A stretch of DNA of 64,000 bases from positions 19,536,917-19,600,916 of the forward strand of contig OX419346.1 in NCBI GenBank assembly GCA_948470475.1, read 5' to 3'. A model generated the notes under the pieces. That model saw nothing but the letters and a program-made list of their open reading frames with translations, searched no databases and was not told the DNA's origin. This document shows, piece by piece, positions 1 to 64,000 of the stretch; positions within the stretch are counted from its first letter, which is position 1, and each line of letters starts with the position of its first letter. The translations under genes were made by a program, and so were the position numbers. This DNA is from Galaxea fascicularis. Its lineage: Eukaryota; Cnidaria; Anthozoa; Scleractinia; Euphylliidae.

Positions 1-1003
1 TAAACTGAGCTACTTAATATGGCTACAGAAAGGGAGAAGACTGTACTACAGCCCGACGCGTCGAAGAGGTATGTACTTTTTGGATTTTTTTCCAGATTTA
101 AAGACATTTTTTGCATCTTACAGAGGACCGAAATAGTATGACAGTGCTCCTTTAAAATAATGCAGCGAGGGCTAAATCGGCCTGCTGTCATCTTTAAGTG
201 AGTTGTCAAGACCGTTACACAACAAAATTGGTGATAAATCACGTTAATTCCTCTTTTATCCGGACCACTATTTTAACAGATACCTCCATGATAATTTTCA
301 CCGCCAAAACTTGTTTTCTTCCCTCCCCTCAAGCGGTTGCCGAAACATAAATCATGATAGTCGACTCGATCTCTCACGTCATAAGTACCAAAGGGGTACA
401 ACGTTTCTACATCGTTCCCGATTTGCTTTGTTATGTACTATTTGTATGTTTTTGACATACATCTCACAGGTGTCGTGGTTACGGTGATAAACAACAGTAA
501 ACATATTTTTCTTTCAGTAACGTAAGACAGCAAAAGGCTGTTCCAGATAACTGCGAATAACTATCGCAATATGAAGTCTGCCGTGAAAAACGTTTTCAGC
601 CAGAAGTTTTCAAAAACGAAAGCTGTCTTCGAGATGGCCGGCACTAACAGGCACCATGAGCGTTCGGTGTAGTGATGAACTTTATTTTCTAGAGCATTAC
701 AACATGACAAATCGTTTGCGTTTCTCAGTGCATGAATGGATACGTTAATTGGTGCGTGTGGTTTTTGAATGACGACAAGGCTACTGGGTTCTGGCTTTTG
801 AATGACTTTTCTCGTAATATTTCAAGCTTTTAGGTCCGAAAACTAGGTTTCTGTTGCATTACATTGAACATGTTGCGAAAATGAAAATGCGCCTCAAAAA
901 TTTCCAATTTCTTTTGTTTTTGTACCAAGATCTAACTAACTTCCTCAGTAGGCAGGCAGGGAAAATAATAATTTCTGATTCAACTCTTACTTCACTGACT
1001 TAC
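1..1003. other. Probable intron 1 of paralogue 1; nothing else seen
   Basis: This stretch lies 3' of the exon 1 donor of paralogue 1, so it should be intron if that gene is intact. I looked on the minus strand for the exon 2 pattern (a Cys, then a Gly-Cys pair, then a YxLxV-like end before a donor) and found none. In the paralogues exon 2 lies about 1 to 3.5 kb from exon 1, so it may fall outside the window. Short plus-strand ORFs here look random. Confidence 0.4.
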
Positions 1004-1322
1004 CTAGTTGCTTTCGCACCTCCGTATTTTCTTGACATCTCCAAAGATTGTCTCGAAGTATTAGAGTAGCGTTAGTTTCTGGACATGAGCAAGAGTAGTG
1101 ATCACTCGTTCCATCTAATTGACAGTCGATGTCTGAGTGATTACAATAATCCCCGAACGCTCTTTCTCCTTGTCGGCAAGCAGATTGGGGTATGTAGAAC
1201 GAGTCCTTTACCTCCTTCCACTTGTTATGTTCTATTACCCTGTGGATTGTAATGTTCTGGAGATGCGTTGGATCGATAAGCAGTAATTGCAGTATCAAAA
1301 CCTTCAATTGCGATATCTTCAT
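1004..1322 (-). CDS. Paralogue 1 of the receptor array, exon 1 only (signal peptide and Cys-rich module)
   Basis: Coding exon with ATG at 1322 and donor CTAG|GTAAGT after 1004; it ends in phase 1 like every other exon 1 in the array. It encodes about 106 aa. The hydrophobic start (MKISQLKVLILQLLLIDPT) reads as a weak signal peptide. Next comes the family pattern: DSFYIPQSAC, further Cys residues, CSCPETNATL, a W-R-C and the exon-end motif VRKQLG. Six Cys are visible. This copy has CxC where most paralogues have CxCxC, plus an extra upstream Cys. The remaining exons must lie to the left of the window, so I cannot tell whether the gene is complete. The function is not known from this module alone; membership of the receptor family is inferred from exon 1 similarity. 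Confidence 0.72.
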
Positions 1323-2707: not shown

Positions 2708-2935
2708 GGGACCTTTAGATTTGGGTACGAGTACGAGATCTAGGACGAGTACGACTTTTCAAATCCTGTTCGCGTGCTTTAGATGATCATTAGTGACACC
2801 AATCTTATTTCTACAATCTCAGGGTCTACTGGTAAGTAACAAGGAAGAGTGAGGGTTCAGGGGAGGTGACTGGTTTGAAATTAAAAATTCGTACTCGTAC
2901 TCGATCTCGTACTCGTACTCAAATCTAAAGGTCCC
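2708..2935. repeat. MITE-like element with TA target duplication
   Basis: The left end, gggacctttagattt, reappears inverted at the right end, and the TIRs continue into a degenerate GTACGAG/CTCGTAC tandem. A TA dinucleotide flanks both ends (2706-2707 and 2936-2937), as expected for a Tc1/mariner-type non-autonomous element. There is no coding sequence inside. Confidence 0.75.
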
Positions 2936-4202: not shown

Positions 4203-4213
4203 TTTATTTTATT
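4203..4213 (-). terminator. Overlapping AATAAA polyadenylation signals of paralogue 2
   Basis: Two TTTATT words (AATAAA on the minus strand) lie about 55 nt beyond the stop codon at 4265. The spacing is reasonable for a short 3' UTR. Assignment is by position only. Confidence 0.4.
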
Positions 4214-4264
4214 TGAATCTGCTCCGGTCAAGAAAACCAATCGCTGTGTCATTTGTACTCTTCT

Positions 4265-7200
4265 TTAACATGGAGACTCGTCGTTTGATTTCTTTCCGCT
4301 GTTTGGATAAGTCCTCTTCATCGTGGAACCACCTGGCCATTGTGAACGGCTACTCTCTCCTGAGCCGCTAGGATTATAGCACTCGTTGACAATATCGTTT
4401 GCTGGTTCAATGTCTTGGCAATCAATACCCGGTCTCTTGAGGGTGTCAGAACACAATTCTTCCAACGTGAAATAAACTGGTTTCTCCTCTGGCTTATCTT
4501 TGCCTTCTGTACCCTTAAGATACTGTTCTCCCACAACAGCGTAGATTGGTTCATCCTGCCATCTGGGTTGAATTCTGGTTGCTCTGGAGTGATTAGATTT
4601 CAACCTTCTCAAATGGAAGTAAACTGGACCGTCATGATTTGTCACCGCTTTATATTTGGGAGGTCCGTTACTACAAACCTCCTCAAAGAAGTTGTACACC
4701 ACCGGTACTGGTTCATTTGCGCCTTCAGTATCACTCTTGTCTTTCTTACCTGAAAGGCGCCGTGGTAGCAGCAATCCTGGCCTAGCTGAAAGGGGAATTC
4801 CTGGTTGTTCCGTCTTATTGAGATAACGTTCCTCCAATTGGTCAAAAACTTGTCCAATTGTGAATTTAGAATTGTTGTTGTCGTTGTTGTTGTTATTGTT
4901 TTGTCTATCAGAACCAGACCGTTTTAAGGTGTAATAAACTAGCGCTTCTGTGCATATGGCTTTGTATTGATCTGGTCCTTCAGACCCTTTACGAACCGGC
5001 ACATTTTCGCATTCTGGATCATTCTTTGTTCTCTTAAACGTATCCGAAAAGCAATTCTCCAGCGTGAAGTACACTGACTTTTGCGACCCAGTTTCAGGCT
5101 CTTCTGATTCAGTTCCACCCACAACGTAAGGCCTCAACACCTCGAGCACCGGTTCAGTTCCGCCATCAGAATTGCCACTGTTTTCTCTAAAGTTAATCAA
5201 CTCAGACATATCCATGGAATTCCTCGCCAGTCGCTTTTTAGAAAAGTCTACTTCTGCGTATATGTGGTCCTCCTTTAACTGTGGCCCAGGTGTCAATAAT
5301 GCTGGATCTTCTGTAACTATACTATCCTCCAATTCTTTATCGCTAACTTCTGCCTGCTCAAGAACGTAATAAAACGGTTCGTCGTCATTTGCTGCTTCTG
5401 GATTTGCCCCCTCGGGAAATCGGATGACAGCATAAATTGGACCATTGTCTGGCTCATCCTCCCATAAAGGAATTCCGTAGTTTGGAACGTACATCGCTGT
5501 TAATGATGGAAATAACGAGAAAATCATTCAACTGGCACAGTAAACAAAACTGAACGACCACCTATCAACTTAATAATGGTTCTTTTTTCTTTTGACTGCC
5601 TTTTAAAATGTGTTACCGAAAGATAGTGGTAGTTTGGTCGATGGATTCACTTACATGATCTTCTAAGTGTGACGTCAGCTTCTTCTACTCCAAAAGTTGA
5701 GTTTCGCGGGCTCACCAGTACAGACACCTGTGAGAATTAGAGAAACGAAACTTTGAATTGAACGCAAGAAATCAAACACCAGCTCTGAAGAAACTAAGGA
5801 ACAAAAAAGTAAAAGATAACAAACACGGTAGTCTTTGTGTAGTGGTCGTAAAGTTAAGCAGGTCAAATAAATTTTGCTCTTGGTGGCAAATAGCCGCTCA
5901 GAAAATAATTAGGGCTGTTTTTTCGAAGATTCGCTCTTCCAGCAGCAGACATATGGTACTTGTTTAAGAAAAAAACAACTTTTATATACGCTACCTTTGT
6001 TTCTTCACTGAGACTTCTTTCTCGCGGCTGGACCCTGTGGAAAAGACACATTCTACTGAATTTCATTGAGATCAACAGTTGGCTGGTTAATTGGAACATG
6101 TTCAGTGCAACAGTTTTAACCATTTGTGGTCTTAAGAGGAAACTAAGAGAGTAACTTGTTGGAACTTACGAATTACAATATTTTCATCAGACAATTCAAT
6201 CAAATCAGCAGTCTCCCCTCCCCGCTGATCCCAATCCCTGAGATCACATCTCTACTAACTAGTGCACATATTCCAGGCGGCAGCAATATTTGCTTCGTGT
6301 TTTATTTCTTTGTTTTACGGCAGAGAGTTTGTAAATTACACATCTATGACGTACAAAAAGCCAACTCAATTTGACATATTCTTTTGTTTTCTGTTTCCAG
6401 AAAGTGACCATCCAACATAATTACATATGATCTTTAGAAAATCATTGCTTACAAAAGTTCAGTTTTTAATAGCGCTAACCCGGAGTGCCGACAGATAATA
6501 ACAGTTTACATACAAAAAAGATGGCTATAATTAGATCTGTATAGGTAAACAGGAATTGTTACAGTGATCTGTTGCATAATGTTATACAATGTTTCAACAG
6601 TAGTATGATAAGATTCGATGTGAAATATGCCAATGCTTTCAATCCTTCCCCCAAGCCTGATTTTAGCTAAAAAAAAAAAAGGTAATATCTTTTTTGTAAT
6701 TAGTTAGACAATTCAGTTTTTGGTTCATTTTGTTGATTTTTCTCTTAAGCGACCGCCTCCCGAAGTGACCACAGCTGTGTAGTGCACCAAAGTGACTGTA
6801 TAAAGTAACTGTATAATGTCCGCGATATATATATTAAACCTGAGCACTACTATTTAGGGCATGACCTAAAGTTCAACCTCGTAGTCGGCTGCCCTCCCTT
6901 TGAACGTTTGATGATGACTTTTGCCTCTACGCCAGCCCCCCTCTTCTCCCTAAATCTCTATACAACCTCTTTCTCGTGCTGAAGACAAACTGGCTACTGA
7001 AATCAATATAAAGGTAGATTTATACCTGTACTTATAACTTTTATCCATTCATTTTATTATTTTTTTTAATAATGCAAAACTTTATTTACAATTATTCTTC
7101 GAAAACAAATACAGAAAGGTTTCAGATAAAAATTCAATAAACGCTTTCAAATTCTGCACTTCATGTTAAAAAGTGTCCATGCATGATACTTTTTAAAAAA

Positions 7201-10200
7201 AAACGTTGTTAATAGATGCAAAATTACAAGTCTTAAAAAAAAATCATTATGATTAAGATGGAATGTGTCCCTTTGTTTCTTAGAGTTCGATTACTTAGAT
7301 TTTATTCTCGAGACACAAAACTAGAAAAGCGAAAGGCGAATGGCAAAACTAAAACCCTAGACAAGGCTGCTAAAAATTATTATTATTATGGTTGTTGTCA
7401 TTATTATTATTATTATTGTTATAATAATTATTAATAATAATCATTCGATTTATTGATCGATAACAAACGCTAATATTAAAATCCTATATACAATTAATTC
7501 GCTAAAAAACTATTTGGTCAAAACACTATTTACAATTTCTTTGGATCAAAAAGAAGAGCACTTAGATTTGGTCGGAAAGAAAAATTCAATTGATTAAAAA
7601 CGAGACGCAAAATTAAGTTATATCGGTTGCTCCTATTTTACAATAACAATGATAATCGTTTTTTTTTATTTAATTCGATTAAAAAAATTCATCTCAGTTA
7701 AAAAAAACATTCCAAATAATAATCTCGTATAAGAACTTTGTTAATAACAGTAACAAAAAATTTAATATATTATTATTATTATTATTGTTATTATTATTAT
7801 TATTATTATCAATAACAGGTTTCAACTTACTTTGAACAACGGCGTTGATACATAAAGGATCCAACGATAACAACAGTTATTATAATGAACACTGTAATCC
7901 CTGTCGAGACACCGATGTATAAACCATTGGTTTGTTCTTTGCGCCCGCTGCCAACGTTGGGAGGAATCTAAAGCAGAAACAAGAACATAACTTGTCACCC
8001 TAAGAAAGTCTTCTGAAAATGACACTCAACCGACCAAGTATTCTTCAAGCACCGATCAAGCTCTAGTGTGACGTCGTGCCAGCTCAAATCATTTACGATG
8101 TTACTTTCAGTTAGAACATAGTGCACACTCTTAGTTACCAACCTTCTTATCTTTGAAGTCGAAAGTGACTGATTGACTCAGTGACTGACTGAGTGACTGA
8201 ATGACTAACTGACTCACTGACTTTATGAGGGGACGCAGCAGACTTTAACTGTAAGTATCGTTTTTCGCAGAGAATTTTTCTTGTGGTCAGTGAAGGCGTC
8301 ATAATCTGTAATACTCTGCGACATTCATCTGTCAACTGTCCTGTCTGTGGCGTCTGGGAAAAGTTTTCCTTTGAGTCTACTGTTGTAGTTTCGTGTTTCA
8401 GCTTAAGGCAATGTTTTTTTTTGTTTCACAAAGGACAAACGTTCTTTATTTTACCTCATGGTCAGACCAGAACTCCAGAACGCAACGTTATGGCACTGAG
8501 GAAGGCTTTACTTGCGAATGGAAGTCCATATGACGGAAAATCGGGTTGCTGGCGGTAATACTACGGCAAAATTCAGACAAAAGTACCCTTAAGGAGGATG
8601 GAACACTCAGTCAGTTGAAAAAGCTTGTCAATGCTATTGATTTTAGCCCTATTTCGAGCGAATGCGCTCGGGAAGCTAGTGACAGTGATCGTCCTCCAAC
8701 TGCGCGCCGTTTGGCTATGCCTTCTACACAAGTGCAAGATGCAACGAGATAACTTCTGCAAATCCCGTTCAGATGCAAAGGAGTAATCATTTCCTTCTCC
8801 GCGCTATATTACGGTTAGCTTGGCTGCCCTTCGCCGCTCCCGCTTTCTTTTTTTCCACTCTTTCAGCTGCTTTAACTTTTCTTCACTGCTCTTCATGTGC
8901 ACGAGAGTAAGTGACCCACACTCGCTTCGAAGTCTGCTTTTTGCGAATTACTTTCACTGGCGGAGTCCGCCATCTCGCTGTACGTCTAAAATAAATTCAC
9001 TCGGAGTCACTGTTTTTAACGCACGATCTAATTTCATAAGGTGTTTTTATTTATCACGAGTAAATCTATATGGCGTATTTGTTAAGAACATATCCCCAAA
9101 GCGTTTTCTGGTTCATTTCTAAAACAACGACAACTTCCATGACATTAAAACAGATTAAGACGCCTTGCCGGTCTCAGAGGAAAAGAAAACCAGTGGGCGT
9201 TAAGTTGAGGTATGTCAGGAATGCTGGTGTATTTCACTAGCATTCCCTTGCGGTACTTACAGCACACGTCTGCAGCGTCTGACTGACTGGCTGACTCAAT
9301 GTCTCAATGTCTCACTGACTCACTGACTCACTGACTCACTGACTGGCTGGCTGGCTGACTGACTGATTGACTGACTGGCTGACGGACGGACGGACGGACT
9401 GACTGACTCAATGTCTCACTGACTCACTGAGTCACTGACTAGCTGGCTGGCTGACTGACTGACAGACGGACGGACAGAAGGTCGGGCTGGCTGACGACAG
9501 ACTGACTGATTGACTTTAAACAATCAAGCCAGTCGTTTAACCTAACTTCCTTCGGAACACTCTCTTTCTAATTGCTTACATTAGGGTCGAATGTGGTTGG
9601 TTCAACACCACTTGCCTCTGTTGGTGGAGCCAAAACAGGGGTTTCTCGGCCTTCATTGATTGTCGGTGAGACTTCGACGACTTCTGGTGGAATCCTCGCT
9701 GTTGGTAGAATATTCAGTGTTGGCAAAATCTCCACTTTCATTCCCGCTCCCTCGGCTGTGACACTGGAGACCTTCGAGGAACTTATGGAGGCTTTAGGCG
9801 AGCTTCTGGAAGTTGTTAACAGTCTTAGCAAGGCTGTTGGTGTGGCATCTGAAGTCGGTAAATTGGCTGTGGTTGAAGTAGCGGATTCTTTCGATTTAAC
9901 ACTTGGGGAAGTTCGCAATGAGAAAGGTTTGTAGGAACTAACTAGGGCTGTCGATGAAATGTCAGACGTAACAATTCTTCGTGAAGATGAGACTTCTCGT
10001 GAAGAATAAGCAGCTACTTGTGAACTAACGGCAGCTGATGGTGAGATGGCGGAGGTTCTCAGTGAAGTGTGAAAATCTAAAGAAGATGCAGTAGGGGTTT
10101 CCGATGTTGCAACGGTTGATTCCAGGCCTGAAGAGGTAGATCCATGTGAGTACATTGTCGTCAGTGATTGCATTGAGGAAGACATTGTGTTTGTGGGCTT

Positions 10201-13200
10201 GTCTACAGGACCTGTAAGTAATTATATAAGACTTAAGAAACTCACTGCTAAGATATTTGAGTCTTCATGTACTTGTCGTTTCGGACTGGCCTGGTCAAAG
10301 GTTTTTTTTGTTACCAGCGAAGAAATTGACTATGGTTTGGCAAATTACACCAAGCTTAATTAATTTTTCACTTTTTCACTTTTTCACGAATTTTGCTCTT
10401 TTTGCCTCAAACTTTTGAAGCTTACGATGTTGCCTAATACGTTGTTGCCATTTTGAATCACTTTAGTCGGTGTTTGGCCAGTTTTAACCATGAGCAATTT
10501 GGTTGTCGTCGCTTTCACATTCTTTACGAGTAGACGTTACGAGGGGAAGGGGTAATATCACCCCCAGGGTCAGGAACCGGAAACTAAGACCCACGCGAAA
10601 TAAAGTTAAACTTACATGTTTCTTTTCCTTCGATCTTCAACAAGAGACAAATGTCTATAATGACCTGAATTACGCTGAGGCCACGACATTGCATGGCCAA
10701 GTTGATAATCTTTCCTTGAAGTAGATGGCTTCCTGGCTTACCAGCATTGACCTTTAAACAGAAAAAAATAGAATCTACTTAAATTAACCTGTTAATTTGG
10801 CAAAATTGAATAATTATTGCATCTTAACTTCCTTCAGATTTATGACAGATGACGGAGATCACTCTTTCCCTTCGTGATCATGAACCATTAATAAGATAGA
10901 ATAATTGAAAATTGTCGGCGACGAGCAGGTAATTTGGCTGTACGCACTCACGCTGGCGCCGCTAAAGGACATTGCCACTTAACAGAGTTTTTTTTTTCTT
11001 TTTTCTTTCTGGTAGTTTGTTATCGATACCATTAGTTGGTAACAGGAAACCGTGTTGTCCGGTCTTGTTAAAGTCAATGTGAATGTTTTGGGATAAAATT
11101 TTTCATCCGAAGGAACACGTAATGTGCATTATATAAACTTTCATTTATTTATTGCTTACCTCAAGAACGTAACGATCTACCGGTCTTATTCTTCTGATTG
11201 AAAACAGTTGCGATGCGGCGTTGTTATATTGGTGAGTGAACAGAACTTTGGAACCATTGCATCCAATGAACCATGAGGAACTGATATCTAGAGTGCATGT
11301 CCAGTATTCCCAAAGCCAGTACCTGATAGAAATTTCTGCTGCACTACCAATGGCCAAGGAAGGTATTCGGTTATCGGGGTTTTGTCCAGTAAAAGTAGTC
11401 CTCGCTTCACATCCTAAGGTGGTAAAAAGTAATGACGATGGTGCATGCTATGTTTAGTTTCACATTAAATCAGCTAGCATACATACTCTTTTGCTTGCCT
11501 ATATGTAATTCCTAAAATTGACGAATATGTTTTCGCGTGCTCTTTAAAAATCCTTAAGTTGAGTTAACCAACAAAGAGGCACACTAACACGAACATGGCG
11601 AGTAACCATTACCTTCAACAGGCGCATAACCTAGCGTCATGTACGATTGTTTCAGGTAATGCTTGAGATGTAATCTCAAAGCAATCAAGCGAATATCGCA
11701 AAAAGCAAACTCAGTGAAAGGTTCTTACGATTAATTTGGCAAAATTTATTGGTTGTTTTCTAATAAAACAATTATAATGGTTATAAGCAACTAGCTGGCG
11801 AACTGTCATCTTATATCCAACACTATCTCGCTCATAAGTTAAACATCAGTTGTTCAACAAGCTCGTGCACAGTAGAGGAATATGTCATATTTTTATGTAG
11901 TAGTATAATGGTTTGACACTGACTAGTTTGTGATGTTATGTTCAAGACGTTTCGGCCGGTGCTTAAGCCTTCATCAGTTGGAGAAAAAAAATAACGTTAG
12001 CACGCGTGATTCAAATAAAAAACAGCTCGTCGAGCGCACGCCTAGAACTATCTGCGTGCAGTTTCCTGAAAACGTAGCGCGAGACTTATGCGCATGCCAG
12101 AGACTTGTAGAACTCTGGGATGGAGATGTGGTCATTTCCAGAATGCGCGTCCTTGATTGAAAACCAGGCTTCCAAGAAAAGTCGCTCGTGATAATTAGCC
12201 TCATGTCCAACAACTTCGACATTTCCAAAATCCATTACATGGTTGTTTTCGTGGACATGGCAGGAGATCTTGGAGTCATGGTCGAACATAGAAACAGCCC
12301 TTTTGTGTTCTGTAATCCGGGTTTTAAGTGATCGTTCAGTCTGGCCGTAGTATACAAAACTGCAGTTGGCGCAACTGACTTTGTACACTGTGCCAGACTG
12401 TGTCCGGTCAACCTTTTCCTGGGCTTTCGGTCGCGGGAGCAAACTGTTCACAGTTTTCAAAGGTTTGAAGGCGACTTTGATTTGTTGCTGCCTTAAGATT
12501 CGACCAATCCTTTCCGAAATGCCCTGCACATAGGGTAACACCACGAAGCCATTGGACGGTAGATCGGTGGGTAGTTTCGACAGTGATCTTTCGCAGCTAT
12601 TGATGAAGGATGAGGGATAACTATTGTCTCGCAGTACAGCCTTTACTCGCTTGGCTTCTTCACGTTTCCCTTTTTGTGTTGATGGTATGTTCTGTGCTCT
12701 GCGTAGCAAGGTACTGACTACAGATCTCTTATGGCACAGGGGATGGTGAGAGTTGAAGTCGAGATAACGGTCTGTGTGGGTTGGCTTTCTGTAGACATTC
12801 ACATTCACTGCCATGTCCACGAAAACAACCACGTAATGGATTTTGGAAATGTCGAAGTTGTTGGACATGAGGCTAATTATCATGAGCGACTTTTCTTGGA
12901 AGCCTGGTTTTCAATCAAGGACGCGCATTCTGGAAATGACCACATCTCCATCCCAGAGTTCTACAAGTCTCTGGCATGCGCATAAGTCTCGCGCTACGTT
13001 TTCAGGAAACTGCACGCAGATAGTTCTAGGCGCGCGCTCGACGAGCTGTTTTTTATTTGAATCACGCGTGCTAACGTAATTTTTTTCTCCAACTGATGAA
13101 GGCTTAAGCACCAGCCGAAACGTCTTGAACATAACATCAAAAACTAGTCAGTGTCAAACCATTATACTACTATGTTAGCTCCTGACTGCCACTACTCTAT

Positions 13201-15167
13201 TTTTAAACATATTTTTATGTCATAGCTAATTTTTTTGTTATTTCCTGTAACAGCCGTTTTCATAATTAAGGTAGAAAATTTTTCCAAATATATCTTTCAG
13301 CATTTCCTGTGTTCCAAATATCCACCTTCTCAAATTTCATCAAATATTTCTCTCTTGGGACAGAAGAAAAAGTATTGTTCTTTAACAGTCGTCCAAACTC
13401 CTCAAAGGAAAACAAATTGTGCCCAGAAAACATTTCTAGGAAAAAAATCATCTTCGAAATCACGGTATTAATTATGTTAATTAATAAAAACGAATAAAAA
13501 AAATGTTAGTTATGTAAGTATGTTAGTTAATTATGTTGGCATTAATGCAAAATTTGTAAAGCAAATTTGTTAACAATTGCATTTCATTTTATTGTTAAAA
13601 TTTAATTTTCAAGTCCGCAAAAATATCCTACCATGGTTCCATTTTAATTGAGCTGTTGTTCTATTATATGCCACCAAAACCACCTTATATGTTCCTCTTT
13701 TCTAAAATAGACCAACATTAACCAGTCATTCAAAATATTGCTGCACTGATTTTAGCGCCAAACTTCTTGATAGCCTAGAGTCAAACAATATTAATTGTAC
13801 GATCTAAGGCTTGTGATAATCCAAAATTATCTGGTCAAAGAAGAAGTTGATCAAAGTAAAGTAAGGATTTTTTTTTCCTTGTGTGGGTTTTTTAATCACG
13901 GATTATCGATCATTTGAAACCCTAAGACGCTAGGACTACGATGCTAACACTTATAAGGTTAAGCTGCATCTTGGATATCGCTGAGGAGTATGAATGAACG
14001 AATATGTCATTAGATAACTAGGAGTAAAATATTCAGGTAGTTAGTTAAACAGCTTAGAAAGTGTGGGAAAACAAGGTTTGAATCATCACCTTGAGATGCC
14101 GACGCATTCCTTTAACTAAAGAGGCATCGCGGATCAAGCGAAAACTTAACGTAACTACGAAAAAAAGACGTTGCCCGTTATGAATTAAACAGAGTTTTAC
14201 AAAGCTCGAAGTTCGTAATATATCTCGTATAAAGATCTCACTGCTCGCACTATTGTTGCTCGAATTGGAATCTATTAACGATGGTTTAAAAACGAGTTTT
14301 GAATGTTCTTTTTGTAGTAAACGTTTTCTGCCTTGTTGCTATGATATCGAATAACATCATATTGGGTAGAGCGTGATTTTAAGTGCTCATTTGGTTGAAA
14401 AAGAAAATGATGAAATATTTTGCACGAGAAACGTTCACTTGATCGAAGTAAAACGTTTAATTTCGTTGTTTAAAATGCAATAAGTAGCATAGACATAATT
14501 GGCGAACTCAAACATGGTTGAAAACAAAATAATTGTTCCCAATTAATGGAAGACTTCCGCATCAGCGTCTTTAGAAACTAAATCATATTTAATACAGATA
14601 TGCTATGGCCAGGCGAGCTCTCCCGCTTAATTTTTGGGTGGCCTATGTGACCTCTGTAAGTCGACGGCGCTCAAATACAGATCTAAATTAACAGTATTTC
14701 GCATGCCTTAATATTAACTACACTTTTTGTCTCGCCAACTATTATTCGAGTATCAAAGTCAATGGCTTATAATTGCTCCAAATCAAAGCGCAAGAAACAA
14801 GAAAAATCTGGATGGCCTAAAGTCGGGTAGAGTAGGCAATTAATTCTTTCGAAGCTTCATCTGAATTTTACAAGTAAGGCCCCTTACCTGGTTGAAACTT
14901 GTTCCGAGCCTGTGCGTTTTCCATGCATATCCATTGGTTATTGGAAAATGTGAAAGTTGAGTTGGAAGCGGGGCATGAACAAATACAGCTGGAAGCTTGC
15001 CCCTTAGCATAAAATGAGCTACATCTATAACGTGAACCACCGCACATAAAAGAAGGGACATTAAAAGTGTCTAAGCCAGTTACTGGTCTTGAAATTTCAA
15101 AACTTTGAGCAGTCGCACAATGTAAAAGCAGAACCAGAAACGGCCGAATTTGACGCATTACAACCAT
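4265..15167 (-). CDS. Paralogue 2: multi-tyrosine-tail type I membrane receptor, 8 exons, 927 aa, longest tail
   Basis: Exons (5' to 3'): 15167-14888, 11413-11160, 10751-10616, 10211-9580, 7967-7831, 6034-5995, 5727-5655, 5496-4265; together an exact multiple of three. Residues 1-25 are a signal peptide (an MRQIR start at 15158 is also possible). Residues to 93 are the Cys-rich module (CICSC, NSTF). Residues 94-223 are the second Cys module, whose last Cys codon is split over exons 3/4. Residues 224-434 are a Ser/Thr/Pro stalk with mucin-like O-glycosylation expected. The membrane helix is about 450-474, followed by a basic YQRRCSK-type stop-transfer. The roughly 450-residue cytoplasmic part has ten Y-x-x-[LIV] motifs (YAVI, YYVL, YAEV, YFTL twice, YKAI, YYTL, YKAV, YFHL, YAVV). 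SVYFTL and LVYYTL fit the classical ITIM. It lacks the NLYxxL exon 7 motif of paralogues 4-7. An Asn run comes from a GTT microsatellite near 4875-4905. Likely an SH2-recruiting surface receptor (inference). Confidence 0.82.
7376..7441. repeat. TTA/TAA microsatellite
   Basis: Imperfect (TTA)n in intron 5 of paralogue 2. The surrounding intron (6035-7830) is strongly AT-rich and otherwise featureless. Confidence 0.8.
7768..7809. repeat. TTA microsatellite next to the exon 5 donor of paralogue 2
   Basis: A (TTA)n run with one GTT interruption, 22 bases beyond the splice donor of the membrane exon (minus orientation). Confidence 0.8.
8161..8222. repeat. Short GACT-type minisatellite
   Basis: Tandem variants of TGACTGACTCAG in intron 4 of paralogue 2. 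It belongs to the same sequence family as the longer array at 9268-9522. Confidence 0.75.
9268..9522. repeat. CTGACTGGCTGA / CACTGACT minisatellite
   Basis: About 250 bp of 4-base-phased tandem words (CTGA, CTGG, CGGA, CTCA), with sub-blocks duplicated: the order CTCA, then CTGG, then CGGA occurs twice. It ends 57 bases from the stalk exon of paralogue 2. Confidence 0.85.
11946..11979 (-). ncRNA. Hammerhead-ribozyme-like core, left arm of the Penelope-like element
   Basis: On the minus strand the core CTGATGA is followed by GGCT-loop-GGCC (stem II, one G-U pair), then GAAA and CGTC. An ACG lies upstream, able to pair with the CGT after GAAA as a 3-bp stem III. Minimal hammerheads of this form are known in Penelope-like elements. 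Stem I looks weak (a T-rich run), so activity is doubtful. Confidence 0.5.
12086..12808 (-). pseudogene. Penelope-like polyprotein fragment: end of reverse transcriptase plus GIY-YIG endonuclease
   Basis: Open frame of about 240 codons ending at a stop at 12086. It opens with VYRKPTHTDRYL and NSHHPLCHKRSV, the conserved C-terminal block of Penelope-type reverse transcriptases. A GIY-YIG domain follows (VYKVSCANCSFVYYGQTERS, then the catalytic Arg in LKTRITEHKR), and then the typical C-terminal extension with E residues near FLEAWFS. GIY-YIG nickases supply target cleavage in this class. The 5' end is cut at the inverted-repeat junction, so only a fragment remains; no stop or frameshift is seen within it. 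A frame continuing upstream of 12808 reads the antisense of the inverted arm and is not real coding. Confidence 0.85.
12809..12985 (+). pseudogene. Inverted duplicate of the GIY-YIG protein C-terminus
   Basis: The plus-strand frame repeats the last ~58 residues of the fragment at 12086-12808 (from CHVHENNHVMDFGN to the KSLACA end) with no evident residue change. It is part of the right arm of the inverted repeat. It is only a 3' end copy, with no domain of its own. Confidence 0.85.
13093..13124 (+). ncRNA. Hammerhead-ribozyme-like core, right arm
   Basis: CTGATGA, then GGCT-loop-AGCC (stem II, four Watson-Crick pairs), then GAAA and CGTC, with ACGTA upstream giving a 3-bp stem III and a possible U-A cleavage step. 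Compared with the left-arm copy, the stem II base that differs (A versus G) keeps pairing through a wobble, which fits an RNA that was under selection. Stem I is unclear. Confidence 0.5.
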
Positions 15168-17761: not shown

Positions 17762-18265
17762 CTGGAGAAACACAAAACGATTACTAAGACAAAGCTGAAT
17801 TATTGCATCATTTTGTTTAAGAGCGAACTCGGCTTTCATGCATACCACAGAAATTTTCCCTGCAAGTGCTTGATGAGCTCATGGTATGCGCCAAGTCCTG
17901 TATGCCCGGTCTAATGACGGACACCTTGAACTGGGGATCTGTTCAAAGCAAAACCTTTACTTCTCTCCCTACTGTGTGCCAAACGAATGGTTCATCTTCA
18001 ATCACATCCAGCTTAGCTATAGAGGCCGAGGTCTGTGAACTGCCTCATGCCAATAACCTGTCTTACTGGAGAAGCTGGTCAGGAAAATGTGCCGAGTTCC
18101 TTGGATATTGATCCTTCATAAAATGACATAAAATCTTTGTCTGCATTTCCTACTGTAAGTTAATTATTTCAGTCGTTTCAGCAACCACAGGGGTACCAGG
18201 GCATAAAAGGATTTTAATAAGCTTTCCAGAAAGGTTCGTCACCTGCTAAACTGTCATATCCTTAC

Positions 18266-18480
18266 CTTGAAGATTGCCTCTAACCTTATCATTGTCCTTG
18301 AGACAGGTCCACTCGTTTTCATCAAAAAGAAAGGTTGCTTTCTGGAGAGGACACGAACGTGCATGAACAGTCTTTCACCGGCGGCGTCATATGAACAGCA
18401 TCGTTTGACATATGTGCTTGCTCCATTACATATCTGGATCCAGGAATCTTTAGAGAGTCCCAGCTACGCCAAAACTTGGG
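18266..18480 (-). pseudogene. Paralogue 3 (pseudogene): degenerate exon 1
   Basis: Reading minus, WDSLKIPGS and DCSCTF recall the FxIPxS...CxC part of exon 1. The frame then hits a stop after SNLSF. One base over, it resumes as FLFDENEWTCLKDNDKVRGN before an intact CAAG|GTAAGG donor after 18266. There is no signal peptide or ATG upstream. Exons 2-4 are absent between this piece and the membrane exon 500 bp away, so the locus lost its ectodomain core and stalk. Clearly a relic. Confidence 0.78.
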
Positions 18481-39200: not shown

Positions 39201-39618
39201 CTTGTGTTGAATCTTAAAGACTAAACTTCACTAAACTTGGTTCATTGTCTTTGAGATCCAAGACTGCTTACGGCTTCTGTTGTCACTATCACTTACCAAG
39301 GACGCTACGAACGTCGGAGTTCTTGAGACATTTCCACGTATTATTATTAAATATCAACGTCGCACTGTCATTAGAACACAAGCAATGGTAATGACTCGTG
39401 CTGTCACTGATGTCTTGAGCGTTGAATCTCGAACAATCACTGGTATGGCTTCCGTCGTGGCTAAAGAACGAATGATGAATCTTAAACGAGTCTCTGCTTC
39501 TCTGCCAACCATTCCTTCCACCTTCCCTTTTTCTTAAAATCTCAAATGTTTCTGAAAGGGCAAAGTCAGTAATGTGGATTAAAATCACGATGGTGAACTC
39601 AAACTTGAGTTTTTCCAT
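33298..39618 (-). CDS. Paralogue 6: multi-tyrosine-tail type I membrane receptor, 8 exons, 670 aa
   Basis: Exons: 39618-39297, 38273-38035, 37000-36868, 36614-36100, 35503-35358, 34981-34945, 34854-34764, 33827-33298; 2013 nt, in frame. Signal peptide about 1-22. The Cys-rich module to 107 keeps only four Cys: the usual IPxSxC is IHHSFF, and CxCxC is CLC. Second Cys module 108-231 (WSTGCDGN; exon 3 GRIINLSIKC). Mucin-like stalk about 172 aa. Membrane helix about 421-445, then FYRRCHSK. The cytoplasmic part holds QNLYKTL (exon 7), DHYACLNIPEGSNIYG, three YNVLEE motifs each preceded by P-V or P-I, YTAL, YGTI and YLSL; eight Y-x-x-[LI] in all. This is the cleanest version of the E-P-V-Y-N-V-L-E-E repeat. 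The acidic residues around each Tyr suit Src- or Syk-type kinases (inference). Confidence 0.84.
36655..36775. repeat. Fold-back element in intron 3 of paralogue 6
   Basis: gtgttcgctcacg...cggccat on the left pairs imperfectly with catggccactgtg...gtgaacac on the right. Non-coding. Confidence 0.5.
37441..37820. repeat. ATCCCGTATCCCG repeats in intron 2 of paralogue 6
   Basis: Two clusters (37441-37511 and 37742-37820) of ATCCCGTATCCCGTTAA-like words, inverse to the GCGGGAT words at 31284-31446. The sequence between the clusters is AT-rich and unremarkable. Confidence 0.55.
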
Positions 39619-41903: not shown

Positions 41904-42024
41904 GGGGAGAACAATAGCTTCTTCATGCTAATTAACCTCGGCCGCTTTGTTAGCATTGTCTGATGACGTGTAAGTGTTTTGGTTCAATTTTATCCTTGGT
42001 TTACATATAACTACCGTAGGTTTC

Positions 42025-53521: not shown

Positions 53522-56500
53522 TTACACCTTAGGTTTTTGATGTTCATCACTGGACCCTGCAGCCTTTGTTGAAGGCTCCTCCAAGACGTGGTATACAGGT
53601 TTTTCGGAAGCCGGACGTTCAGGATTTTCCGCATTGTTTACTATATTGAGGTTCTCGACGAGGGTATATTCACGTTGTTCCACACTGATAGGACCTTCAG
53701 TGTCGCGTCTTTGGGAGGAACCATTATCAGAGGGGCTTTGTGCGGTGCCTGTATCCAGGTCCTCAATGAGGGTATACAGGCGCTGTTCCACACTTAAATG
53801 AGCTTTCTGAATGGATGTTTCAGAGGTACCATGGTTGTGTAGGCCTTGTTTGGGGGTCGCAGAAAGGTCCTCGATAAGGTTGTATACGCGCTGCTCCACG
53901 CTAAGAGGGGCATTATTCTGAGGTCCATTAGAGGAGCCATAATTGCTGGAGCGTTTTGGGGGGACTGCTGGGAGCACCTCGATGATATTGCACACCGGTT
54001 GTTCAACACTCCTTGGAGCATCATTGTGGACAAAAGTGGGGACTCGATAGACTGAGGCATAGTTTCCTAAAACGTAATAAGTTAGCTATTACTTTTATAA
54101 TATCAGGAAGTTAGGAACATGGAAATGATGCTAAATAGCTCATAGGGTGTCAAAATAAATAACTCGCGAGACTGCTATGTTCCTTGGGGCTGGTGCACAT
54201 ATGTATATTTCTGGTTTTCGAGAGTTTGCTTTTTCGTCCGAAAGAAACAAAAATAACGTTCCGCATTGTCTCAAAGATTTTCAAGTCGTGTGAGCCATCC
54301 ATACAAACCGCACAGAAAGTAGTAGAAGCCAAGACAAGCAAAGCCAGTTGGTCTCAATTTCTCGGCGTAATTATTTCAAAACATGTTCCACATGCAAGAG
54401 TGCACTTTTCAACAATTTGTTCTTCAAAATAGGAGCAGTAAAACCACGGGCAAAGACGATCCTTCTGCAAGCTTTCTTCCTCCAATTTTTTTTACTCACC
54501 ACAGTTGCTGGGAGTAAGAGTAGCATAGTCTGCATTCTGTTGGCCATTCTGGATTTCTAAACTTGAAAGAGAACTTTCAAGAGTTTCACTTGGAACACTT
54601 GTCAGAGGATAGCTCCTGTGATTAAATAAAAAGCATCACAGTTTGTTAATGTGTGCAGGAAAAACCTGCCATTTGCATGTCCATTTTCTTTGGGCGCCAG
54701 GAAAACCTCAGAAGCGTTTTCTATGTATGTCTGTTGGTCTGCCTGCCTCTGTCTGACTCTCCAGTGGGGAAATTGACATTTGAAAACCAAACCCTGAAAA
54801 TGTCAAATTCCCTTGGGGTTGCCCGCCCTCCTCATCCTGGGGTAAACCATTAATAGGTACATAAATCTGACTTCTACAACAATGGAGCTTCATTACCTTG
54901 ACCGTTGCCTATGATAGATACACAATCCAATGACAAGTATCACAAGAACTAGAAAGCCATTGATTCCTGCGATAAGAGCGACAATAGACGTTGAAATGAT
55001 AGCACCAGAATTGCGATCCGACTCCGAACCGGGGACCTGAGACAAGATGAGGGAAAGGAAAGAATGAGTCGTTATCATGAACGATGTCTTTAACAGTAAT
55101 ATGGAAGCGATGACAACATTACATCGGTTACCTAACAGTTACGTTCTTTTGCGCCTGTTAAGTATATATGACTGTTGATTCCTCGCGTGTAGTTAATCTT
55201 TTACGAAACACTTGTGCAATGGACAGTGTTGTTTCATTCGTTGAGATTCATGCTGGCGTGAAGTGTTGTAGTGAAAGTCATACAAGACCTTGCCTTGAAG
55301 GGACTAACTCATGGTAAATTATTGGGTCATTTAGAACCAGATATGCCCTCAAGGGTTCCTAATAACCAAAATACTCCGCGATCACCAATAGAAATTAAAG
55401 ATACCAAGCCCTTCACTTAAAGTGGAACCAAACCATATTCTGACGAATTCTCTCTGACAAAGGGCTAACGCTCGAAATGTCAGCTTTTAGAATCCCTGAA
55501 CGGTGGCCAATTTACATTTCATCAATTCCGCTGATAAAACCAAATTTCCATAGTAACTACTTGACTACTTTTCCACAACACAGAAGAAAACTTTGAAAAA
55601 TTGGCCTCAGTTTTTAAAGTTGCTATGCATTGCATTGTAATCCTCGCTATCAATGGTTAAAGAGATTGTTTGTAACTTTGTTGGACTGGTTAAGTAATCT
55701 TGAACTAAGTTGGACCATTCCTTTTGGAAACAAGAATCATGATGTAAAAGAAACTCCGGACGTTTGGCAGTCAAGATCTCACACAACAATTAACAGCAGA
55801 TCACAACAACAAACTACACTGATTGACGATGAAAGACCACTATTCACCTTTAACAGTAATATGAAGAAGTTACCTTTCTCACTTCAGTAGAGGTTGATAA
55901 ACTGGATAACCTTGAAGGCTCTGTTGATTTTCCATCTATCATACTGATGGTTGTCTTTGCGTTGGTCGTCAGAGGAGCTCTGCCTAAGATGCAAACAGGA
56001 CAAAATACAAAAAATGCCATTTAATCCTTGTATTACAATTACAAGCACAACTCCAGAAAGCGACAGCTGTACTTTGGCATTCATAACGTCATCACAGTGT
56101 TTATCGTAAAATGCAGTGGTGGTCCAACGATAGTTTGGACAACACCGTACCAAAATTGAGACTAGCGGCAGCAATTTATACGCACCAAATGCTCCGAGAA
56201 TAACAACTGTTAGGAAACCAAATGATACTTGTTAATTGTTACTGACTTACAGTTAGTAGTTCCTGCCATCTTAAACAACAAGCACTCGTCTGCAGTTGCA
56301 CCGTCGCACTTAATGCTCAGGTTGATGATTTCTCCCTGCAGTGCGGGCTTCTCGTCTGGAAGATCGAACTTTAGCAAAAAAAATAAAAATGAAAAACGTG
56401 GAAATGAATACGACTTTTCCTAAGGGAAACCGAGGGGTTGTCCTAGAGCCTCTACATCGGTTTACGCTACGAAGCATTTGGTTTGTATGGTCACCACGTT

Positions 56501-58232
56501 TAACGGACCCGTCATTAGCGCAGATTTGTTCTTAGTTGTCTCGCCCCATGACCTATTTACCATTATCTGACACTTCTTTCTGGTCCAAGTAGAAACCGTT
56601 TATTGTGTTTGATATTATTATTGTTGTTTGGGTAACAGTACGCCTCCAATAATATTACTTTATAGCCGAATGCTTTTATCAATGCACAAGAAATAAATGA
56701 TTTTCACCTCAAGTTTGTTGGTAGAATCCCGAGCGATTGTAAATGCGCCAGAAGGTATCGTTCCTCCCAGGGAGAGCCCGTTTCCAGGACAACGCATGTT
56801 CCGAGAAGCCGCCAAATTTACTCTACATTTTTCTGTCAACGTCAACGACAGATATTTCGTATGAGAACCGTACTTTACCACTTGTAGCTGTTGGTCTGGT
56901 GTTTCATTTTGAAAGAACGTCCTTTTGTGGCAGCCTGATGAAAAAGTATGTGATAAAATATTTTTACGTCTTGATCTCTGAAGGAAATATGTATTCTTTT
57001 TCGACCATTTTGCTGCTTTTTAGTCCGTTTGGAGCAATACTGAATGAAGGCAAAACCCTTAATTGAATAGCCTACCACTTGCGGGTTACCCGCCTTTCAG
57101 TGATAACCATCTACATTAAGTTCTGAGCTGGTTTAAAGAGTTCACTGACCAAACCATCGAAAAACACGAAAACAAATCTGTAAGGTCAGAGTACATTTCC
57201 AACCTAGTAGATTCGGTCTGTAGCTTCTCTGTATCACAGATCACAGAAAACAGTTCGTCGTGCTATTTAAGTAGACCACGTTCCATTCTATTATAGCAGC
57301 GACTTACCTGGCGAGAACCAAAATGTCATCGTAGTTACCTTTCAGAGGTAATTTCATGTGATAACTCCCTTTTCGTTTTAAGGAGCATATTGTAAGTGTT
57401 TAAAATGTCAGCAATGATTTTTGCACGCTTCTGACCTTCAAACCAAAAAAAATCACTTTGACGCTAAGTCTTGTGTGTGGTTACACTTCCGTGATCTTCG
57501 GCTAAGGTAAAAATGTTCGGAAGTCCCGGTGTTACTTTTGAAATTTTTGGACGTTTACGGTATCGATCTTTTAAACTCTGTAAACTGTAGAGTATGAGAT
57601 GCTTGGTATTTCATGATCATTCTAGATATATTGTCGTAAGATATCTTCACTCGTCTCGAGTGTTATCTCTACTAAGGAAAGTTGGATAAATATTACATCC
57701 CGTATTATTACGAATATTTAATTCTGTCTGTACTCAGAAAGTAACATAAAACTTAAAACATCGATGTCGTCGCACATCGTTTATTAATTGACAGTAATAA
57801 ATCAGTTTACTGAGAACTACTTCATGTTTACAACCAAAAGGTCAAAGGCTTCTGGTACTGAGCTGCCTGGGCCACAATCAGGTTCTAATCTCTTAATTGT
57901 CAATTAGCTAACTATCTTTTTTATTTGAAATAAGTATAGGTAGAGTAAAGCTTACCAAGAAGGCGTCTGACGACTTCATTTCCAACGCATTGCCAAGAAT
58001 TCTCATAAAATGCAAACGTCGCGTTTTGTGCGTCGCATTGGCAACTACAGCTTGTCACGCCTCTCAGGGCATTGTACTTGCTACAGTCAGAATTGGTTGC
58101 CTTGCATTGTGATGGTGGAATCGTGAAAACATCCGAATTGTTCCGCTGAATTTGAAACAACTCCGATAAATATACTCCAGTGGTTAAAAACAACCAGATC
58201 GCAATCATGAATTTCTGCGGCAAGACATTCAT
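53522..58232 (-). CDS. Paralogue 8: multi-tyrosine-tail type I membrane receptor, 7 exons, 510 aa, repeated tail
   Basis: Exons: 58232-57956, 56934-56708, 56368-56251, 55983-55874, 55036-54897, 54615-54500, 54066-53522; 1533 nt, in frame. Signal peptide about 1-22 (FMIAIWLFLTTGVYL). Cys-rich module to 92 with CSCQC and NATF. Second Cys module 93-207 (exon 3 GEIINLSIKC). A short stalk of about 37 aa. Membrane helix about 258-284. The single 116-nt exon 6 stands for exons 6 plus 7 of the others (phase 2 in, phase 1 out), suggesting loss of an intron, and carries DYATL. The tail holds four roughly 41-residue repeats around SVEQRVYNLIEDL; the first has Cys in place of Tyr (PVCNII). Motifs: YASV, YNLI, YTLI, YTLV, YHVL. 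Beyond the stop, another frame reads CNVLEEP, a probable lost tail end. Confidence 0.83.
53620..54035 (-). repeat. Four-fold coding repeat in the tail of paralogue 8
   Basis: Repeat units of about 41 codons share S-V-E-Q, then [PR]-[VLE]-[YC], then [NT]-[IL]-[IV]-E. The linkers are Gly/Ser/Asn-rich (NYGSSNG, NHGTSET, NGSSQRR). Local tandem duplication is the simplest origin, as the linkers also resemble each other. Confidence 0.8.
55441..55500 (+). mobile_element. Relic of a Penelope-type element end (hammerhead-like core)
   Basis: CTGACAA, then GGGC-TAAC-GCTC (stem II with one G-U), then GAAATGTC. It recalls the CTGATGA/GAAACGTC arrangement at 13093 but has core changes (CTGACAA), so it is unlikely to be active. 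It is in intron 4 of paralogue 8 with no protein fragment nearby. Confidence 0.4.
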
Positions 58233-61200: not shown

Positions 61201-61437
61201 TTTACATCTTTGTTTTAACTTTGTTTTCCCACTGTTATAATGGGATTGTTCAAGGCTTAAGAGTTCAGGAATTCTCATAAGGTATTTAGTTTGCGGTGTC
61301 GTAACCTACAATTACTGTATTTTTCGTGTGATGTCATCAATTTCTGACAGGTGGAATAAGGGCACATTAAGGCCGGACTTTCGTTTCCTTTCAGTTTACA
61401 CGCCATATTGGGCAATGCCTGAGAACTTTCTGGTTGA
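58233..61437. other. Spacer between paralogues 9 and 8
   Basis: AT-rich, including the presumed promoter of paralogue 8. I saw no family exon, no clear repeat and no other gene; ORFs of 60-85 codons look random. Confidence 0.4.
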
Positions 61438-64000
61438 CTAAAGAGTCATTTTAAAAAATGTTTGAAGTTTCTTTCTCGAGCTGGACTGGTTCACTTTCGT
61501 CGCATTTTGACTTGAACATGACTGTCTTTCCGTATTGCTACCCTCTGTCGGAGCTCCCTCGCTTGACTGAGCGAGAGTAGAGTTTTCAGACCGAATATTA
61601 TGGCAGCCTCTATTCACGGCGGTTTTGTTCTCCTCTACAAGTATCGAAGGGCGTGTGCACATTTTTTCAAAAAGATCTTCAGTTGTTTGTAGATTATCTA
61701 TCTCCCTGTCCTCAACCGAAATGTCCCTTAACATGTATTTGTCTTTTCGCTCCGCGTTTGGGAGGTCCTCTGTTATGCTTGATAGTGGTCCTCTTACGTT
61801 GGGTTCTTTTTTTGTGTCTTCTCCTGTCCCCCTGCGAAGAGGTCCTTGCAGAGGTCTCTCAGGCACTGCGTAACGCGACGCATATATTACTGAAAGAAGA
61901 ATTAGAAGACATTTGATTGCAGTTTATGTCCCCACTTTGCAAGATCGAGTGACCATTGAAATGTTCCATTGTGTTTCACTGAATATGCGATGCAATGAAT
62001 ACGTCATGATACTCGGATTCAGCATTCCAATATATGGAGTCTTTTTATAACATACCTTATATTAGACTCAACTTGCTACGGATTTCATACAAATGTTTTA
62101 TGTAGCTTACTTTGAAAGGAGTGATTACTTGGGATGGAGTGTCCTGCCAAAATGTATAAGCTGCTAAGAGTATTTTCGTTCCAATTGTTACAGAAAGTCC
62201 TCGAATCTAGCATTTTTGCAGTATATGATAAGAGAAAACTTTTCCGCCGTGCCTTTCCTGAGCGTCTTCCCGCACAATCCCGCAATCCCTTACGCAGCAC
62301 CCTCGACCCCAGTCTTTTCCAAACTGAGTTATCAGAAACCAGATACCTGTGTCATTGTCATGACGTCTGACTGAAATCCCTTTCTGCGGTATCTGGTCGT
62401 TTCGCCAACGAGTCGTTGCACTAACGTACTAAGACGTTTCGCTAATGTCGTTTGCGAATCGTCTGAACACGTTAGCGAAACATCTTCGGACGTTGGCGAA
62501 CTGGACGTCGGCGAAACGACTTCTTGACGAAACGACCGACATTCCTTTCAAAACCTCGCACTGTAAAGAAGCGAATCGAAATCTCACCTTTATTCTTACC
62601 ATTGTCTTGGTTTTTAGTAAGGAGGTTCTGATATCCAGAAGCACTTTTCGGAGGATCAATATTTCCATTCAAGTTTGGTAAAGCTCTGGCGGGATCGCTT
62701 TCTCCAGGAGGACGTGCAAACGGCTCAGCGTAGATAACTTCCACGTTGCCAGGCGTCTTTGCGCGTGCGCGGAGGGCAATCTGTTCTTTTTTATACACGG
62801 GATTTAAAACTGAGGTTGGACAATTTCGGTTTTCGTTTTTATTTGTTATGTTTCCTCTTTCAACTAACTCATAACCAGAAAGATTGTCTTCACTTGCATG
62901 AACAGTGGCTTCCTGTAAGAGAATTTCACCACGCAGTTAATTAAGTGTTACGGCTTAAAGCTAATGTTGTGTCAAACAACATTCCATTAATGGTGTGTAG
63001 TTTTGGTTCTGTCCTGGTAATTCTTATTCCAGTTTAAGAAAAGTAAAAACATGGAAGACTGTTTTCCGAAAGAAATCGTATCCTAAAACCGGAAGACTCT
63101 TTGCGGTTGCGACCTGAGTCAAGCCCGTCATGTAGTCTGGACTGAATGTCTCTAACCGACTTCCGGTGCTTCTAACGGCGCACGATTTTCCCGCCAAACA
63201 TTTTCCATTAGAAGGCACATCGCGCATGTTCATGCTTTCCTCCACGTTCGTTCTAATTTTCCACTCCGTTAAACTGACACCTCATAACAACCAGGGACCA
63301 ACGTTGTACTGCAGTTACATGTGTTTTCCTAAATAACGAAAATAACTTGGATAAATATGTAGTTATAATAACATTAACAGCAACTTACCTCACTAAAAGA
63401 ATGTTCCTCGCCTGTAAGAAATAAAGAAAGTTCGTCACCATGGGTGAAAAATGGAATCAGATTGCGTTTTGTTCACAAAACATTAGTTTATTCGTGCAGG
63501 AAATGGTAGTGGGCGCCTCAGCGCCCTCATCTTGCATTGCAACATTGTTAAGAAATTGAGCTATGTAGTCAATCAGTGAGAGGCAAAAGCAATCGTAGCT
63601 ACACATTTTTCCGCGCTCGCTGCTGGATACATGTGTTTCCTTTCGAATTCTGATTGGTTATGTGCACCGTTCTCTTCTTTTCTAATTGGCCAGATAATAA
63701 CTCTGATTTGGATTTTTTGATACACGATTGAGAAATTTCTCTAAAACGTTTTACTATGTTATCTATTTAAATATAGAATCAAACCTTCGGCTCCCTCTCT
63801 TCTGTCAGCTCCAACACGTCTGAAAAATATAACGGATCACGGTTGAGACAATAAAGAAGTATGTTATTTTTCAAATCAGAAATTGAAAGTAAGGAAATAA
63901 AGAAAACTGCCTACATTTTTCCCATTTTCCGAGCGAGGTAGAGCAACAGTATGGCAAAGAAAATAAGAAGTACTCCTGCAATGGCTCCTGGGATTACACC
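61438..64000 (-). CDS. Paralogue 9: divergent member, membrane exon to tail (cut at the right edge)
   Basis: Exons seen: from the window edge to 63915 (membrane helix GVIPGAIAGVLLIFFAILLL, then LARKMGK), 63819-63785, 63411-63389, 62912-62588, 61889-61438. Phases match across all junctions (2, 1, 0, 1), which supports the model, although the donor after 63785 (GTTTGA) is weak. The ectodomain lies outside the window. The usual exon 6 appears split by an extra intron, and exon 7 is enlarged to 325 nt. It carries YELV, YQNL and NPVYKKE/VIYAEPF, which resemble the family motifs without the hydrophobic +3 residue. The last exon keeps the family start (IYASRYAVP) but has no Y-x-x-[LIV]. This could be a non-signalling or differently signalling paralogue. 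Confidence 0.7.
62396..62546. repeat. Cluster of GTTTCGC / GCGAAAC words
   Basis: Direct and inverted GTTTCGCCAACG, CGTTAGCGAAAC and GTCGGCGAAACGAC words packed into 150 bp, in the intron between the last two exons of paralogue 9. It may be a degenerate fold-back element. Confidence 0.5.

Follow-up and report, generated by a model that had tools for sequence, protein, structure and literature searches.

The stretch of DNA analysed here, referred to as the window, covers 64,000 nucleotides of the stony coral Galaxea fascicularis (C12:19536917-19600916, C12 being contig OX419346.1) and holds a genuine tandem array of genes that are predicted to encode type I membrane receptors with multi-tyrosine tails. 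Nine positions in the window carry exons of this family, all of them on the minus strand in an exon-profile search of both strands: four are complete copies (A-D), a fifth (copy F) was traced through its membrane exon, and four are partial. An earlier note on this DNA had described nine same-strand positions sharing one exon order and one set of intron phases, as well as six models that close in frame. The nine positions and their strand were recovered, whereas the full order and phases were found in four of them and the first five exons in a fifth, and the models that close number four rather than six. These four open models bear out its description of tandem type I membrane receptors with multi-tyrosine tails.

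The complete models encode 507 (A), 672 (B), 670 (C) and 596 (D) amino acids, with a stop codon at the end and none inside. All 27 of their introns are GT-AG and follow the phases 1-0-1-0-2-(0)-1. The first exon encodes a hydrophobic N-terminus, which we take for a signal peptide, and a cysteine module (module 1). A second module (module 2) is split over the next two exons and is followed by a Ser/Thr/Pro stalk, 33 to about 210 residues long, one predicted membrane helix, a YxxL exon and a tail exon. Between the membrane and YxxL exons, copies B, C and D have a mini-exon of 12-16 residues, and a similar one lies at the partial copy E; copy A has one mini-exon fewer. The mini-exon was included in B, C and D because the frame closes only with it. 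Splice-compatible candidates numbered 4 in B, 5 in C, 5 in D and 10 in E, and the choice between them was made by eye. In copy F, all four introns between the five traced exons are GT-AG, with phases 1-0-1-0.

We searched 224 kb of C12 and 30 kb of C4, on both strands, with exon profiles, and found 18 copies of the first exon, 12 of the second and 15 of the third at E < 0.01. Since the profiles were seeded from 13 first, 5 second and 6 third exons that are themselves among the 45 matches (24 of 45), the new finds amount to 5, 7 and 9. All but one of the matches (44 of 45) lie on a single strand of C12 or on the strand of the C4 copy, and the lone plus-strand exon is outside the window. The 224 kb, flanks included, hold 17 first exons, of which one is on the plus strand and the other 16, among them a fragment, are on the minus strand, so that the array continues beyond the window; as 17.5 kb of the flanks are masked, these exon counts are lower bounds. 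To the right of the window, two-gene units are duplicated at 93-98% identity. C4 has one relative bearing all main exon types, as profile matches rather than a spliced model. Searches of the whole genome (416.6 Mb, one haploid assembly) with exon 1 of copy C and exon 1 of the C4 copy as queries gave 9 and 11 matches, exclusively in the C12 region and on C4. We rejected chance or misread frames as the source of the array, given the open models, the constant phases and the strand consistency of the profile matches.

Module 1 has four invariant cysteines, usually six, and by profile similarity it is the Pfam domain Sha_B_N (PF23328). Scanning the genome for this domain gave ten matches at E <= 1, six of which scored over the cut-off and lie, without exception, at 19.59-20.36 Mb of C12; the same scan gave none in the control genomes. 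The one match over the cut-off inside the window is exon 1 of copy A (27.5 bits vs 24.4). As full-length proteins, copy A scores 23.8 bits, just under the cut-off, and copy B 15.1 bits. Among 13 exon-1 sequences, 7 match Sha_B_N at E <= 5 (best 3.6e-6), copy C does not, and no other Pfam family was matched by any of the 13. Most window copies thus fall below the cut-off and are tied to the family by alignment and profile. In public protein data, the exon 1 profile found 7 relatives and the module 2 profile 11, all short open frames, and 4 of the 7 (P0014, P0015, P0016 and P0018) are already labelled Sha_B_N. In some automated databases, cnidarian proteins are entered under the name Shavenoid-like N-terminal domain protein. 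We found no paper linking shavenoid with cnidarians in the open-access literature, and none of the titles listed there dealt with the array family. A second group of Sha_B_N exons (L031, L032 and L035) lies on the plus strand about 0.75 Mb away, at C12:20338098-20365109; upstream of its Sha_B_N exon, L035 has a short tyrosine-rich open frame (SGYEYGYLVL, PYYFKIE, PYYYKLD).

Module 2 spans 115-134 residues in the window copies and has ten invariant columns, four of them cysteines, with a fifth cysteine in 8 of the 10 aligned sequences. Neither a Pfam scan of ten members nor a PDB sequence search gave it a credible match; DUF5348 (E 0.0025), MobC_2 (0.13) and Tsi1 (0.18) were each hit by one of the ten and were taken as chance. 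PDB sequence searches with exon 1, exon 2 and the joined module 2 returned nothing at E <= 10. The family had been put forward as undescribed. It is not wholly so, module 1 being a named domain, and the description still fits module 2: a profile search of the ectodomain for named families, as the earlier note had suggested, placed module 1 over the Sha_B_N cut-off in copy A only within the window, and module 2 in none. Its remark that no immunoglobulin (Ig), lectin, TIR, LRR, SRCR or EGF domain could be recognised in the ectodomain agrees with our Pfam scans of copies A and B, exon 1 and module 2, which gave no such match. The stalk and membrane region of copy A reached 15.1 bits against Glycophorin A (PF01102), below the cut-off of 30.1.

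Residues 1-235 of the copy C model had no public relatives at E 0.001 among 500 candidates, and no spliced public relative was found, copy C being the only full-length spliced model searched. P0012, a public relative 95% identical to copy B, stops shortly after the splice point of exon 1 and therefore looks like unspliced DNA of a close relative rather than a transcript. An exon of the type found in copy S5, whose 3' end reaches into the window from the right, recurs nearly unchanged in the public open frames P0001 and P0002, and in a more diverged form in P0004 and P0011, which indicates that the S5 branch is present in other samples.

The tails are rich in tyrosine motifs. YxxL/I/V occurs above composition shuffles (p < 0.05) in six of eight tails, and a repeated motif is of the [E/Q]P[V/I/L/F]YxxL type, commonly [E/Q]P[V/I/L/F]YxxLE. 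Strict immunoreceptor tyrosine-based inhibition motifs (ITIMs) occur in three of the eight (D, E and F, two each), and the spacing of 6-12 typical of activation motifs (ITAM-like) in three (B one, C two, F one), both as plain counts without a chance estimate. The E tail is a hand join with an approximate junction. The tail shuffled for copy S4, to the right of the window, is the exon at 74198-73728; a nearer splice-compatible last exon at 75398-75183, with YAKV, YAFL and YQRL, stands outside the shuffle test.

Copies A, S4 (first exon at 79505) and S2 (101555) are recent duplicates. For the pairs A-S4, A-S2 and S4-S2, the differences in exon 2 of module 2 amount to 10.2, 7.8 and 9.3%, whereas those in the pooled intervening, mostly intronic sequence are 3.7, 3.6 and 1.7% (Fisher p 6e-5, 0.005 and 3e-8). 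This contrast uses 205 of the 227 bases of exon 2, and its 2829 "intron" sites include the stalk exon (101 bases) as well as a few bases from exon edges. In the aligned core of module 2, protein-altering changes number 24.5, 19.5 and 21.0 vs 2.5, 1.5 and 1.0 silent ones, with one-sided p values for the ratio of the two rates (pN/pS) of 0.036, 0.074 and 0.020. The core is a DNA-anchored alignment of 69 codons of exon 2 and 30 of exon 3, from which the last 6-8 codons of exon 2 and the first 8-9 of exon 3 are left out. A variant of the count, which took in some intron codons along with exons 2 and 3, gave p values of 0.017, 0.045 and 0.21 for exon 2 and 0.012, 0.039 and 0.25 for exons 2 and 3. 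We regard the dN/dS test as marginal and alignment-dependent, and give more weight to the contrast between exon and intron.

The same duplicates differ in their tails. Copy A ceases to resemble S4 and S2 around 54440, within the intron that precedes the tail exon, so that near-identical ectodomains are joined to unrelated tails. The last exon of S4 and S2 lies within a total of 1.7 kb that matches an inverted segment at 143-145 kb in window numbering at 90-97%. This segment lies about 7 kb past the first exon at 136405 of a distant relative (L029, Sha_B_N 39 bits), in a region with 5 kb of masked sequence, and that first exon and these tail exons are only putatively one gene. The break in similarity and the match at 143-145 kb imply that tail exons moved between copies. 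The tail of copy B has four matches in the genome, all on C12 at 19.53-19.58 Mb.

The exons of all copies are listed in the table. Copy E lies directly downstream of copy D (window 23605-19077), and the exon-profile search found no ectodomain exon between its membrane exon and copy D. Copy E could have decayed, or it could supply alternative 3' exons for D. Several repeats accompany the array. Intron 1 of copy B contains a 106-base tandem repeat (window 47837-48080), and a CTGA-type short repeat lies just past the stalk exon of copy F (9241-9515). Also near copy F, a minus-strand open frame at 12910-12086 has a GIY-YIG-like end and resembles a fragment of a Penelope-type retroelement; an inverted copy of its C-terminal part lies on the plus strand at 12707-12985, so that the whole feature spans 12086-12985. 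To the right of the array, a 252-base satellite (L023-L024, at roughly 146-164 kb in window numbering) contains one short minus-strand open frame many times over. Across the genome, the GFP family gave 46 exon matches over the cut-off (C10, C12, C4, C5 and C9) and none in 14 control genomes, which points to an anthozoan genome.

Table. Exons and related features of the receptor array, in window positions.
Feature	Position	Strand	Basis
Copy A exon 1, signal peptide + Sha_B_N module	57956..58232	-	Sha_B_N match 27.5 bits, gene model
Copy A exon 2, module 2, first part	56708..56934	-	exon profile, gene model
Copy A exon 3, module 2, second part	56251..56368	-	exon profile, gene model
Copy A stalk exon, 33 residues	55883..55983	-	gene model
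Copy A membrane exon	54897..55036	-	gene model
Copy A YxxL exon, DYATL	54500..54615	-	gene model
Copy A end of similarity to S4/S2, ~54440, intron before tail exon	54350..54500	.	duplicate alignment
Copy A tail exon + stop	53522..54066	-	gene model, tail statistics
Copy B exon 1, signal peptide + module 1	48291..48609	-	exon profile, gene model; public relative P0012 95% identical
Copy B exon 2, module 2	46937..47163	-	exon profile, gene model
Copy B exon 3, module 2	46476..46596	-	exon profile, gene model
Copy B stalk exon	45737..46047	-	gene model
Copy B membrane exon	45038..45177	-	gene model
Copy B mini-exon	44491..44530	-	splice-compatible candidate, gene model
Copy B YxxL exon, LYRSL	44276..44390	-	gene model
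Copy B tail exon + stop	42834..43579	-	gene model, tail statistics
Copy C exon 1, signal peptide + module 1	39297..39618	-	exon profile, gene model
Copy C exon 2, module 2	38035..38273	-	exon profile, gene model
Copy C exon 3, module 2	36868..37000	-	exon profile, gene model
Copy C stalk exon, 171 residues	36100..36614	-	gene model
Copy C membrane exon	35358..35503	-	gene model
Copy C mini-exon	34945..34981	-	splice-compatible candidate, gene model
Copy C YxxL exon, LYKTL	34764..34854	-	gene model
Copy C tail exon + stop	33298..33827	-	gene model, tail statistics
Copy D exon 1, signal peptide + module 1	29702..30023	-	exon profile, gene model
Copy D exon 2, module 2	28596..28867	-	exon profile, gene model
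Copy D exon 3, module 2	26308..26437	-	exon profile, gene model
Copy D stalk exon	25776..26005	-	gene model
Copy D membrane exon	25168..25325	-	gene model
Copy D mini-exon	24481..24529	-	splice-compatible candidate, gene model
Copy D YxxL exon, LYQEL	24202..24307	-	gene model
Copy D tail exon + stop	23605..24128	-	gene model, tail statistics
Copy E membrane exon, ends approximate	20880..21028	-	exon matches
Copy E YxxL exon, matched part, VYQNL	19961..20026	-	exon matches
Copy E tail exon, matched part + stop	19077..19514	-	exon matches
First-exon fragment, frame broken upstream	18249..18374	-	exon profile
Copy F exon 1, signal peptide + module 1	14888..15158	-	exon profile, gene model
Copy F exon 2, module 2	11160..11413	-	exon profile, gene model
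Copy F exon 3, module 2	10616..10751	-	exon profile, gene model
Copy F stalk exon	9580..10211	-	gene model
Copy F membrane exon	7831..7967	-	gene model
Copy F putative tail exon, 409 residues, junction to membrane exon not placed	4265..5494	-	tail statistics
Copy G exon 1; 5000 bases left of window masked	1002..1322	-	exon profile
Copy S5 3' end, open frame with Tyr motifs; S5 first exon outside window at 69361	62472..62936	-	
Copy S5 second tail-like open frame, IYASRYAVP start	61438..61923	-	

The architecture, the tandem growth, the decayed members, the fast change of module 2 in one branch and the exchange of tails are all seen in the DNA, and we consider that the array probably, though by no means surely, encodes tandemly amplified coral recognition receptors of type I that would signal through YxxL tyrosines. 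At the cell surface, their expected location, module 2 would bind a changing ligand, be it a microbial, symbiont or self marker. Clustering of the receptors would then lead a Src-type kinase to phosphorylate the YxxL sites, which may be read by SH2 proteins similar to Syk, SHP or Grb2. New copies would arise through unequal crossing-over, and old ectodomains would be joined to other tails when the intron that precedes the last exon recombines, a swap that would alter the output and keep the specificity. Vertebrate paired receptors are known for such changes of output without a change in specificity. A recognition role, which the earlier note had proposed as a candidate for self/non-self or microbe sensing, remains an inference and is made more plausible by two further lines, the excess change in module 2, found in one trio of duplicates, and the tail-exon exchange.

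Several observations weigh against recognition, for which the argument is drawn from evolution and architecture. When the whole exons were compared in a protein-guided alignment, which leaves a 6-base indel at the end of S4 exon 2 unplaced, the pN/pS excess was gone (p 0.50, 0.24 and 0.24). The three pairs, having sequences in common, are not independent. No excess is seen in the other trio of duplicates (S5, S3 and S1; omega 1.07, 0.40 and 0.75). The tails of C4 (p 0.23) and S4 (p 0.22) do not exceed the shuffles, and five of the eight tails are without a strict ITIM.

A more specific proposal, possible in our view and still rather unlikely, is that the array is a coral self/non-self complex on a single chromosome for allorecognition or symbiont sensing, in which a Shavenoid-type domain and a new diversity module would replace Ig domains, module 2 as the seat of specificity and the tail as that of output would recombine as separate cassettes, and an independent origin would have converged on YxxL signalling. 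It is unlikely that the genes instead encode developmental or structural surface proteins that shape apical cell extensions as insect Shavenoid does, amplified for dosage or tissue specialisation and with tyrosines regulating the cytoskeleton. Sha_B_N is the sole named domain in the array, and shavenoid is described in the cited portion of PMC4053989 as a fly trichome gene with an extreme phenotype that encodes a "pioneer protein"; the likeness, however, covers the small first Cys module alone, and fast change of module 2 and tail exchange would be unusual for structural proteins. Neutral birth and death, with surplus copies under relaxed constraint and gene conversion making the exon-2 differences, also seems improbable. 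It would fit the decayed members (E and the 18.3 kb fragment), an omega near 1 in several comparisons, the marginal or null pN/pS tests and the tandem duplication that the consulted parts of PMC10236652 present as pervasive in coral genomes. Yet relaxation cannot lift exon divergence over that of the nearby intron, conversion from an old paralogue should add silent changes, of which the module 2 core has few, and the four models are fully open. Improbable, too, are proteins for recognition between gametes or between cells, with reproductive conflict instead of immunity behind their fast evolution. Fast change and tandem birth would fit reproductive proteins as well, but the long multi-tyrosine tails, which many gamete-coat proteins lack, suggest signalling.

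Receptors of the kind we favour have counterparts in several systems. Vertebrate paired receptors (KIR, CEACAM and SIRP) share tandem growth, a fast ectodomain and the pairing of one ectodomain type with different tails, whereas their Ig fold and strict ITIM/ITAM motifs are not the rule in the coral array. The Hydractinia Alr genes are likewise a cnidarian tandem cluster of membrane receptors, and differ in that their ectodomain is Ig-like. ITIM/ITAM-type motifs on Alr candidate genes, and ITIM/hemITAM-type tails on Alr and on the Botryllus fester co-receptors (FcoR), are reported in the cited sections of PMC12065747. According to the same sections, FcoR combines ITIM, hemITAM and core YxxI/L/V motifs with a polymorphic locus and motif swapping by splicing. 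The long tail and the core YxxI/L/V motif are common to FcoR and the coral copies; the Ig and sushi ectodomain of FcoR was not matched in the coral copies (Pfam), and where Botryllus swaps motifs by splicing, the coral tails were exchanged between genomic copies. In corals, lineage-specific tandem amplification of TIR, NACHT, lectin and G-protein-coupled receptors (GPCR) has been read as innate immunity (PMC10236652, in part), and none of those domains was found in the array sequences scanned with Pfam; the array family may be among the unnamed orthogroups of that study. For Acropora, recurrent tandem duplication by unequal recombination has been proposed in the cited part of PMC12314368.

Now that the array is mapped, its complete models, candidate diversity module and exchanged tails make these proposals directly testable, and the little-known Sha_B_N domain is placed in a receptor context. 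Among cnidarians, allorecognition genes have been studied best in a hydroid, and to our knowledge the molecules by which stony corals separate self, symbiont and microbe are mostly not known. If the array is indeed a recognition system, unrelated ectodomains in different animal lineages would feed the same tyrosine signalling.

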